64,000 bases of DNA from Gracilariopsis chorda (lineage: Eukaryota > Rhodophyta > Florideophyceae > Gracilariales > Gracilariaceae). The notes under the pieces are model-generated. The model made no database searches. It saw only the letters and a program-made list of their open reading frames with translations, and was not told where the DNA came from. The translations under genes and the position numbers were made by a program. The stretch lies in NCBI GenBank assembly GCA_003194525.1, contig NBIV01000124.1, positions 1-64,000 of the forward strand, written 5' to 3'. Each line of letters starts with the position of its first letter. Position 1 is the first letter of the stretch. Below, piece after piece: positions 14,261-17,403 of this stretch.

Positions 14261-15445
14261 TTACGGCTTTTGTTGGGCCGCAAGGATCTTCTCGACTTCA
14301 TCGGGCGGCAAGGAGTATATCTGTCCACAAAATTCGCACGTGGCTAGCAAATCAGAAAAGAAAAAGACAAGCGGTGAGCGGCAGAAAGCGTAAAACAAGC
14401 TGCAACAAGACCGAAGCATAAACTTACCTTCAATTCTACCGTAATCAGCGAGCAACTGACGCACCTCGGTTTCAGGGATGAGTGCAACGGTACGTTTAAC
14501 GCGATCGACACCACACCGACATGAGTATCGCGGAGAACAGGTTGCTAGTTTCATTGGAGCGAGATCGTTCATGAGCAGTGCAACAATTTGTTCGGGGGTC
14601 ATACCGGCGCGAACCATTTCCGTAGGTGTAGGTGCAGCTCGCACATTATTTTCCAGAATGCGCGCGGTTTCCGAGGAAGCTCCAGGAAGCAGCTGAAGCA
14701 AATACCCGCCTGCAGCAGTGACGACTCCACGATGATCTAGATACACACCTGCGCCTAACGCTGATGGAGTTTGTTCAGATTCGAGTAAATACTGGGCTAG
14801 ATCTTGTGCAACCTGACCTGAAGATATTTGAACCATGCCTGTATAAGGGTGCTTACTATATACACTATCCTTTACAACAGCGACAATACCCGATCCAATG
14901 GCGGCGGGAACATCAAACTGGCCGTTTTTCAAAGGCAAGTTTACAAACGGATTGCCGATATAACCGCGGACTTGCGCAAGTGCATTTGAAATGGTGGTGA
15001 TGCGTTTGAGAGGCCCCGAGCCTCTAAACTCAATTTGCAAAGAGTCGCCATCCTTCTTGCCACTGCTCATGAGAAGGGCGCACGCAAGCGCCCTCCCAAA
15101 GGCGGTGGAGGCGAGGGGGGTGGTGCGATGCAGCCTTGCAGCACCGCTGACCAGCCCCGTACAGGACACGACGCTGCAGGAGACCTCGCCATTGGCGCTG
15201 ATGGTGCGGACAAGAGCGTCGCCCGGGACGGGCGCCTTGAGGAACAGCTGCTCAAACGGGAGCGGGTGGTCGGACGGCGGTGGCGATGGTGGCTGGGCGG
15301 CGTGGCAGTGCGCGATATGCAGTGGTGGGGAATAGTGGTATCGTCGCGGCGGACCCCCGCACGAGCACGGCACGAAAGAGGAGGACGCGCGCAGCGCGGC
15401 GCTGACGACGAAGGCGGCGGCAACTTCGCGCGCCATCACGGGCAC
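14261..15445 (-). CDS. Hsp33 redox-regulated chaperone, organelle-targeted
   Basis: Hsp33 is a holdase chaperone switched on by oxidation of four zinc-binding cysteines. The protein reads through the Hsp33 fold (NGEVSCSVV, IGSGIVAVVKD, AAGGYLLQLLPGA) and ends with the zinc motif as CxC (SCRC) and CxxC (CEFC), all four Cys present. An intron fits at 14344-14427 on the minus strand (84 nt, GTAAGT...TTGCTAG). It splits the zinc region; removing it joins GRIE to ATCEFC. Because 84 is a multiple of three and holds no stop, the unspliced frame is also open (394 aa versus 366 spliced). The first 40-60 residues are Ala/Ser/Arg-rich without acidic residues, consistent with a plastid or mitochondrial transit peptide. 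It is divergent to the ERGIC3-like gene; the two ATGs frame a promoter of under 200 bp. Confidence 0.92.
   Translation of the reverse strand: MPVMAREVAAAFVVSAALRASSSFVPCSCGGPPRRYHYSPPLHIAHCHAAQPPSPPPSDHPLPFEQLFLKAPVPGDALVRTISANGEVSCSVVSCTGLVSGAARLHRTTPLASTAFGRALACALLMSSGKKDGDSLQIEFRGSGPLKRITTISNALAQVRGYIGNPFVNLPLKNGQFDVPAAIGSGIVAVVKDSVYSKHPYTGMVQISSGQVAQDLAQYLLESEQTPSALGAGVYLDHRGVVTAAGGYLLQLLPGASSETARILENNVRAAPTPTEMVRAGMTPEQIVALLMNDLAPMKLATCSPRYSCRCGVDRVKRTVALIPETEVRQLLADYGRIEGKFMLRSCCSLFYAFCRSPLVFFFSDLLATCEFCGQIYSLPPDEVEKILAAQQKP
14344..14427 (-). other. 84-nt spliceosomal intron in Hsp33
   Basis: On the minus strand the donor GTAAGT begins at 14427 and the acceptor ends in TAG at 14344, after a pyrimidine-rich stretch. 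Splicing restores the canonical Hsp33 spacing between the CxC and CxxC pairs. If retained, it adds 28 hydrophobic, Cys- and Phe-rich residues. Confidence 0.85.
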
Positions 15446-15639
15446 ACCCGTCGGTGCCGGCGCAAGCAGATCGTCGTCGCGAGCTCAAAACACAATGCGA
15501 GCATGGACGTGTGCGCGTGGCCAATAAGGTGGGACACGTTGCCAGATGGCTGTACGTTGAGCCGTGCGGTTTTGTGTCAGTCAACGTCATCATAGATACA
15601 AGGGGCGCTATCGTAGATGTGCCGGGCGGGCGTGGGGCG

Positions 15640-16932
15640 ATGCAGAAGAGCCTGCGCCGTCGCGCCACAGCCGCTGCCGCCGTTGCCGTTGCCGTTGCCG
15701 TCGCCGTCGCCGTCATGACGCTGCCGCAGCGTGCAACCAGCCCGGAACGCGCGGGCGTTCCACCCTACGCCCGTTTTATGCGCTCGCTGGACGCATTCTC
15801 GCGTATGATGAAGGTGCCGGAGGACCTGCGCACGCAGTCCACCGTGGGCGGCACCATCTCTCTCATCTCCTTCGTCGTCATTTCAGTGCTTTTTCTCACC
15901 GAATTGGCGTCCTATCTCACCCCGCAGCGCTCCACAACGCTGTCGGTTGACGCCGGCGTCGGCGAGACTCTCACCATTTACATTGACGTCGATTTCCCGC
16001 ACGTGAATTGCGAGCTTATGGGCGTGGATGCGCTCGACATTGGCGGCACTGTGCAGCTTGAAATTACAAACCACATGTTCAAGACCGCCATCGATCACGA
16101 CGGTCGTCGCGTGCAAGGCTCTCTTCGCTCCAAGCTGGGCGAGCCGCCTCGAGTGATGCCACCGTCGCCGTCGCCGTGGCCGAACGGCTGCGGCAGTTGC
16201 ATGGGCGCCGGCATCACCGGCAAAGAGTGCTGCAACACTTGTACCGACGTGCGCAAGATGTATGAGAAACGCGGCTGGTTGTTGACTGATTTGAGCGGAA
16301 TTCCTCACTGCGTTCGTGAGGGCATTACCACGCTAACTCCCGGTCAGTACGACGCGCGTTTCGGGTGCAACATACACGGGCATATCCAGATATCCAAAGT
16401 GGCCGGGCGAATTAATCTCACGCCCGGTCATTCGTTTGAGTTTCACGGCCACACGCTGCACGACCTTAGCGCGGTGCGCGACCATACGCTTGATCTAAGT
16501 CACCGCATTAACAAGCTGTGGTTTGGAGATCCGTACCCGGGGCAGGTGAACCCGTTGGACGGCGTTTCCAAACACGCGAAGAGCGCGAGTGACGCTATGG
16601 GCGCTCACGAATACTTCATTCGCGTGGTGCCGACGACGTATAAATGGCCGTTTTCCAAAACGCTGCGAACAAATCAATACTCGCAGTCGTACTTTTTCCG
16701 CAAGAGTGACCCCAGCAAGGGCGGCCAACTCATGCCCGGCGTGTTTCTGAACTACGATCTGAGCCCGATTCACGTGGAGGTGTCGGAAAGTAGAGGCTCC
16801 TTTCTTCACTTTTTGGTGCAGTTGTGCGCTATTATCGGAGGCGTGTTCACTGTCGCTTCGATGCTGTCCACTTTCATGGACGACGTTGTGCTCAAGGCGA
16901 TGCGGAAACGGCGGATGGGCAAGTTGATGTAG
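15640..16932 (+). CDS. ERGIC3/Erv46-type ER-Golgi cargo receptor
   Basis: Membrane protein that cycles between ER and Golgi in COPII/COPI vesicles. It has a short cytosolic N-terminus (RFMRSLDAFSRMMKVPEDLR), TM1 (TISLISFVVISVLFLTEL), a long lumenal domain and TM2 near the C-terminus (FLHFLVQLCAIIGGVFTVAS). The family cysteine cluster is present (CGSCMGAG, KECCNTCTDVRKMYEKRGW), as is the NxSYNxxYFFR-like segment (NQYSQSYFFRK). The frame is open from 15454, but an ATG there lies 9 bp from the Hsp33 start. I prefer 15640 (430 aa); 15715 (405 aa) is nearer the usual length of about 380-400. A (GCCGTN) repeat at 15675-15714 encodes an Ala-Val run between these two starts. Confidence 0.9.
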   Translation: MQKSLRRRATAAAAVAVAVAVAVAVMTLPQRATSPERAGVPPYARFMRSLDAFSRMMKVPEDLRTQSTVGGTISLISFVVISVLFLTELASYLTPQRSTTLSVDAGVGETLTIYIDVDFPHVNCELMGVDALDIGGTVQLEITNHMFKTAIDHDGRRVQGSLRSKLGEPPRVMPPSPSPWPNGCGSCMGAGITGKECCNTCTDVRKMYEKRGWLLTDLSGIPHCVREGITTLTPGQYDARFGCNIHGHIQISKVAGRINLTPGHSFEFHGHTLHDLSAVRDHTLDLSHRINKLWFGDPYPGQVNPLDGVSKHAKSASDAMGAHEYFIRVVPTTYKWPFSKTLRTNQYSQSYFFRKSDPSKGGQLMPGVFLNYDLSPIHVEVSESRGSFLHFLVQLCAIIGGVFTVASMLSTFMDDVVLKAMRKRRMGKLM

Positions 16933-17084: not shown

Positions 17085-17090
17085 AAAAAA
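17085..17090 (-). terminator. Pol III terminator (T6)
   Basis: On the minus strand a TTTTTT run lies 13 nt past the 5' half of the permuted tRNA-Leu gene, a normal RNA polymerase III stop for a tRNA transcript ending there. Confidence 0.75.
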
Positions 17091-17103
17091 GGAAGATGCC
17101 GCC

Positions 17104-17194
17104 TAGCGCCTTAGACCACTCGGCCACGCTGCCTTATCCGATGACAGCGGTGAGATTCGAACTCACGCATACGAAGTATACTACGACCTGAACG
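17104..17194 (-). tRNA. Circularly permuted tRNA-Leu(CAG)
   Basis: On the minus strand the 3' half comes first (17194-17142, 53 nt), then 8 nt (17141-17134), then the 5' half (17133-17104, 30 nt). The 3' half gives the end of the anticodon stem, loop UUCAGGU with anticodon CAG (17190-17188), a long variable arm (AUAC-UUC-GUAU), a T arm (GUGAG-UUCGAAU-CUCAC), CGCUGUC and discriminator A. The 5' half gives GGCAGCG, UG, D arm (GCC...GGC), G26 and CUA. Joined, the acceptor stem pairs 7/7 (one G-U) and the anticodon stem CUACG/CGUAG pairs 5/5. Total 83 nt, a type II tRNA. The B box precedes the A box, and a T6 terminator follows the 5' half. No second 5' or 3' half is nearby. The junction lies in the anticodon stem, after position 28 or 29 (one A is ambiguous). 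Confidence 0.9.
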
Positions 17195-17403
17195 TTGCGC
17201 GCGGACTTGCTTGTAGGGCACACCTGAAATCTGTGAATTTAAACCACGGCAAAGCGAACTGTGCGTGTGCACGCAAATTGCGCAATTACTGCACGTTGCA
17301 CAGCAAAGAAGTCACCAGCGCTCCGCTCGTCGCCATGTGCTCGCGGTCGCGACGGCGTAGAGTCCCCCCCCACCGCGTCAGTCTCCGTCCGCCTTCCCGC
17401 GCA

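Follow-up and report, generated by a model that had tools for sequence, protein, structure and literature searches.

The window, which here denotes the initial 64 kb of a 193,374-base contig of the Gracilariopsis chorda assembly (91.3 Mb, 1081 contigs), contains what is with high probability a nuclear gene for tRNA-Leu(CAG) that is circularly permuted and functional. One such gene was found in the genome, and its layout points to expression through a circular intermediate by the mechanism known from Cyanidioschyzon merolae. The initial annotation had read the minus strand as a 3' half, an 8-nt spacer, a 5' half and a T6 stretch, and this order and its coordinates were confirmed. The 3' half (17142–17194, 53 nt) covers positions 30–73 of the tRNA, ends with the discriminator A73, CCA not being encoded, and includes the anticodon CAG (positions 34–36, at 17188–17190, read from the sequence). 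It is followed by the intervening sequence TCGGATAA (17134–17141), which separates the mature 3' and 5' ends, and by the 5' half (17104–17133, 30 nt, positions 1–29), in which 29 letters out of 30 are identical to tRNA-Leu(AAG). The gene lies between an ERGIC3-like open frame ending at 16932 and an NCBP3-like open frame starting at about 17361, both on the plus strand and thus opposite in orientation to the tRNA gene; an Hsp33 open frame (14261–15484), whose product is 93% identical to a G. chorda protein, is found in the same window.

Joining of the two halves yields an 83-nt type II tRNA-Leu in which every cloverleaf stem is paired, as had been proposed. The acceptor stem is complete (7/7, with one G-U pair), as are the T stem (5/5) and the anticodon stem (5/5, CUACG/CGUAG), the latter closing an intact UUCAGGU loop, while the D stem contains 3 bp and the stem of the variable arm 5 bp with one G-U pair. 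The cloverleaf lies 3.0 kcal/mol above the minimum-energy fold, which is another structure; this gap is 5.1 in the normal Leu(AAG) gene and 6.8 in the normal Leu(UAG) gene. The folding energy itself is ordinary, with z scores of -0.62 for the precursor and -1.77 for the joined tRNA. Neither ARAGORN nor Rfam at the gathering threshold reported a match in the 64-kb window. We further built a covariance model for tRNAs whose halves are permuted with the break in the anticodon loop, using 21 tRNAs of the same genome as training set and leaving out the permuted gene itself. This model matches the permuted Leu(CAG) gene over its full length (42.7 bits, E = 8.2e-13 in the 64-kb window) and ranks it first among 74 matches from 69 sources (272 kb). 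The next two distinct matches, at 35.6 and 31.7 bits, correspond to 3' halves of ordinary tRNAs with weak pairing behind them, the former being that of a tRNA-Thr with no real 5' half following it. Two additional models, R2 with the break in the T-loop and R3 with the break in the D-loop, gave zero matches and one match, respectively, in the window and 22 loci, which make up a tiny fraction of the genome, and the single match is again the permuted Leu(CAG) gene.

The leader and the trailer of the gene can form a bulge-helix-bulge (BHB) motif of the HBh' type at the junction. The end of the leader (17195–17204) consists of CCGC (17204–17201, h' strand), GCGC (17200–17197, H strand) and AA (17196–17195, bulge), and the start of the trailer (17099–17103) of G at 17103, the third bulge nucleotide, and GCGG (17102–17099, h' strand). 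The leader GCGC pairs with positions 24–27 of the 5' half, also GCGC (17106–17109), to give the 4-bp central helix H, and the leader CCGC pairs with the trailer GCGG to give the 4-bp helix h'. Two 3-nt bulges flank helix H, one being U28 A29|G and the other A A|C30; cutting after the second nucleotide of each would join position 29 to position 30 and rebuild the anticodon stem. Since the cut in the BHB and the requirement for a paired anticodon stem agree, we place the junction at 29/30, within the range of positions 28–30 in the anticodon stem suggested earlier. A junction at 28/29 was considered and rejected: it gives the same mature tRNA and a paired stem, but not the BHB (three of four pairs in H, none in h'). 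The 37/38 junction of C. merolae is ruled out because the anticodon loop is unbroken within the 3' half. The helix h on the exon-exon side is absent, so that the motif is a relaxed HBh' and not a strict hBHBh'. The initial annotation noted a possible GCGG/CCGC pairing of trailer and leader, which is h', and saw no textbook motif, but a good BHB of the HBh' type is present.

A BHB in the exact register (4 bp in H and at least 4 bp in h') arose in 2 of 20,000 dinucleotide shuffles of the leader and trailer, and one of the same register and size in 4 of 200,000 random flanks taken from the window. Both helices were equalled in none of 1000 leader-trailer shuffles and H alone in six. The eight BHB pairs have probabilities of 0.96–0.97 in the predicted ensemble of the precursor, whose minimum-energy fold also contains the motif. 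Positions 24–27 belong to the D and anticodon stems of the mature tRNA, and the precursor would thus have to refold after ligation.

Promoter and terminator signals were evaluated against the 67 other tRNA genes of the genome, nine of which (four iMet and five interrupted genes) had been located through string matching instead of ARAGORN. A TATAWAW element (at least 6/7) starting at -60 to -30 is present in 39 of these 67 genes versus 78 of 1320 control positions, and the A+T content across the reference genes is 63–67% at -50 to -31 versus 46–52% in the other bins. In the permuted gene, the A+T content at -50 to -31 is 75%, and a TATA-like element, TTTAAAT (17237–17243, minus strand), starts 49 nt upstream of the 3' half. 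A run of at least four T residues starts within 30 nt downstream in 59 of the 67 reference genes. The T6 of the permuted gene (17085–17090, minus strand), a likely RNA polymerase III terminator, starts at +13 from the 5' half, and T6 within 25 nt is found at 106 of 18,276 sampled window positions (0.6%). Both types of element flank the permuted unit as a whole, and none lies between its halves. Taken together, the cloverleaf, the match to the permuted model, the BHB and these flanking signals support the original reading of a circularly permuted nuclear tRNA-Leu(CAG) gene.

Expression of such a gene would start with RNA polymerase III at the upstream TATA-like promoter and stop at T6, giving a primary transcript composed of leader, 3' half, 8-nt spacer, 5' half and trailer. 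The end of the leader and the start of the trailer would fold into the HBh' BHB, the tRNA splicing endonuclease would cut at UA|G and at AA|C, and joining of A29 to C30 by a ligase would then give a 91-nt circle, from which RNase P and RNase Z would excise the spacer; after addition of CCA, the product may be used in translation. The catalytic domain of the splicing endonuclease is encoded at two loci in the genome. In four genes of the window, CTG is used for Leu more often than any other codon (28 of 99), and CUG codons could be read by Leu(UAG) as well.

In order to place this gene among the Leu isoacceptors, the genome was searched with the joined sequence, with A-box patterns and with an anticodon-arm pattern. 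Used as a DNA query, the joined sequence recovered itself in two pieces, together with three Leu(AAG) genes (81–83% identity) and one Leu(UAG) gene (78%), all in normal order. Allowing three mismatches at most, an A-box 20-mer occurs at 10 places, of which two are not tRNAs; the others are the permuted gene, three Ser(AGA) genes and the four Leu genes just named. A second A-box pattern gave 19 places, of which 10 were read. Five of these are not tRNAs, and the other five are two Leu(CAA) genes interrupted by introns in the anticodon loop, a Leu(UAA) gene whose insertion lies in the D-loop, and a Ser(CGA) and a Ser(UGA) gene, both with introns; four further places coincide with Ser, Thr and Arg genes already known. 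One of the two Leu(CAA) genes is called Val by ARAGORN and was assigned on the basis of its twin. The anticodon-arm pattern GTTCAGGTCGTAG, with at most one mismatch, is found at 58 places, fewer than for the reversed control (104), and none of the 10 read among the 57 other places, including one exact match and three occurrences of GTTCAGGTCGCAG, is a tRNA. Four Leu isoacceptors are thus present in normal order (three Leu(AAG), one Leu(UAG), two Leu(CAA) and one Leu(UAA) gene), and Leu(CAG) was found, in these non-exhaustive searches, only as the single permuted gene. How far the searches reach can be judged from the genes that they missed: the joined sequence and the A-box 20-mer did not find the Leu(CAA) and Leu(UAA) genes, and the Rfam tRNA search of the genome (63 matches) did not find the four iMet genes, all in normal order, so that an interrupted or diverged normal-order Leu(CAG) gene could have escaped in this assembly of 1081 contigs. 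Human Leu(UAA) used as bait likewise gave no match although the genome has a Leu(UAA) gene. A pattern for Asp gave 9 matches, fewer than its reversed control (20). The isoacceptors Asp(GTC), Gly(TCC), Gly(CCC), Pro(AGG), Pro(CGG), Ala(CGC) and Arg(CCG) were absent from all of these searches, which are likewise non-exhaustive.

The most serious alternative is a dead relic, namely a tandem pair of tRNA-Leu genes that has lost its outer halves, or the result of a small rearrangement, whose halves are never joined; we consider it unlikely. A normal-order Leu(CAG) gene with the same body sequence, named at the outset as a sign of such a relic, did not turn up in the DNA search described above, and the permuted gene is the only Leu(CAG) found within the same non-exhaustive limits. 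Moreover, with sequence identities of 81–83% (Leu(AAG)) and 78% (Leu(UAG)), no cloverleaf stem is broken, and the acceptor pairs, which span the two separate halves, are all formed; this intact pairing is what selection for a joined product would predict. The BHB, the TATA-like element and T6, all in place, also argue against a relic. On the other hand, the last letters of the leader together with C30-G31 (GCGCAACG) resemble positions 24–31 (GCGCUACG) at seven of eight letters, as an eroded first copy would, but a tandem origin gains no independent support from this likeness, since the BHB requires GCGC in any case. Compensatory change was considered as proof of selection and dropped. In pairs 3-70, 30-40 and 31-39 both letters are other than in Leu(AAG), but all three pairs are present in Leu(UAG) and are possibly ancestral, so that they give no evidence of compensation after the permutation and leave the relic without that particular counterargument; at pairs 4-69 and 29-41 the gene agrees with Leu(AAG).

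A split tRNA, with halves transcribed separately and joined in trans, would fit the junction, since splitting at 29/30 is known from the archaeon Caldivirga maquilingensis (PMC4090602), but is very improbable here: judged from the sequence, the halves are not separate transcription units, as they lie 8 nt apart with no terminator in the spacer, and the unit as a whole is flanked by a single TATA-like element and a single T6. A swap of the two halves of a normal gene during assembly can practically be dismissed, since it would be unusual for such an error of 91 nt to create, in register, a BHB of 4 + 4 bp with signals on the right sides.

Other tRNA genes of this genome are also interrupted. 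Insertions of 13–23 nt are found in the D-loop of two Lys(UUU) genes and of Ala(UGC), Ile(UAU) and Leu(UAA) genes, and resemble the ectopic introns reported for C. merolae. Insertions of 14–15 nt with a perfect 4-bp BHB central helix are found in the T-loop of two elongator tRNA-Met genes, which have anticodon introns too, and of one tRNA-Ala(AGC) gene. Both kinds of insertion look like introns and suggest splice sites outside 37/38 in this genome. The sequence TAGCTCAATTGGTAGAGTG occurs at seven places of the genome resembling tRNA-Ala(AGC) D arms; the two that were read are an intact gene and the gene with the T-loop insertion. Regarding the transcription machinery, C. merolae is reported to be without the TFIIIC subunits TFC1 and TFC3 (PMC3978253), and a match to the Tau95/TFC1 family is found in the G. 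chorda genome (C200:54821-55123). An A+T-rich tRNA-Cys(GCA) gene located in a 496-kb contig (C19:33892-33963) is perhaps of organelle origin, a guess from its composition.

A circularly permuted tRNA-Leu(CAG) gene of C. merolae was reportedly described by Soma in 2007. The G. chorda gene is similar to it in isoacceptor, in having the 3' half first, in spacer length (9 bp there, 8 here) and in its predicted terminal BHB, but the junction is at 37/38 in the anticodon loop in C. merolae and at 29/30 in the anticodon stem here, the two genes being compared by description (PMC3978253, Table 1). A TATA-like sequence upstream and a T-stretch downstream are likewise reported for most permuted genes of C. 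merolae. Whereas C. merolae is a unicellular member of the Cyanidiophyceae, G. chorda is a multicellular member of the Florideophyceae. According to PMC3978253, 34 listed permuted genes are distributed over six unicellular algae and one archaeon, with junctions of types I–V at 20/21, 37/38, 50/51, 59/60 and 15/16; 29/30 falls outside these types, and the initial impression of a stem junction unlike that of other permuted genes thus holds with respect to Table 1 of that source. The spacer, by contrast, is not unusually short as had been thought, intervening sequences of 1 to 74 bp being published there, and many of the permuted tRNAs in the same table are, like this one, of type II (Ser, Leu). 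Permuted nuclear or nucleomorph tRNA genes are also described in prasinophyte green algae and chlorarachniophyte nucleomorphs (PMC3978253, PMC4494063), including the nucleomorph of Amorphochlora (PMC4494063), and in Auxenochlorella, of the unicellular green lineage (PMC12636532); the green and nucleomorph junctions given in Table 1 of PMC3978253 are 37/38 and, once, 15/16, in contrast to 29/30 here. The permuted tRNAs of Thermofilum pendens share very short spacers (1 and 7 bp) with the G. chorda gene but are archaeal, have their junction at 59/60 and in both genes contain an intron (same table). The 29/30 position itself is used by archaeal introns and split tRNAs, for example in tRNA-Ala of C. 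maquilingensis, with splice sites of BHB or relaxed HBh' type; those described in PMC4090602 are introns of genes in normal order or halves at separate loci, hence neither permuted nor eukaryotic. A literature search over titles and beginnings of abstracts gave, among the matches listed, no paper on permuted nuclear tRNAs of multicellular algae. What appears to be new relative to the permuted genes compared here is the 29/30 junction and the multicellular host lineage of a gene that, judged by its sequence, is very probably functional and would follow the same mechanism.

Concerning its origin, the positions 24–27 that contribute to helix H also read GCGC in all four Leu(AAG) and Leu(UAG) genes found. 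As this tetranucleotide is a palindrome, the remnant of a truncated tandem copy could pair with positions 24–27 of the next copy and so provide the central helix of a BHB. The published model for the origin of permuted tRNA genes starts from a duplicated intron-containing gene, whereas a splice motif derived from the tRNA itself would need no ancestral intron. We mention, as a tentative idea that is rather less than probable, that Leu(CAG) was permuted twice independently in red algae, at 37/38 in C. merolae and at 29/30 here, the latter with a tRNA-derived splice motif and no ancestral intron.

The permuted tRNA genes listed in the sources cited here come from unicellular algae, nucleomorphs and one archaeon. 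If the gene described here is functional in a macroscopic multicellular seaweed, gene permutation would not be tied to tiny genomes or single cells, and a permutation junction could sit inside a stem that its own motif must unfold. The Tau95/TFC1-family match in G. chorda would further imply that the loss of a TFC1-type subunit is not required for keeping a gene with inverted A and B boxes. Finally, since the permuted Leu(CAG) gene is missed by both ARAGORN and the Rfam tRNA model, more permuted tRNAs may exist in other macroalgae.
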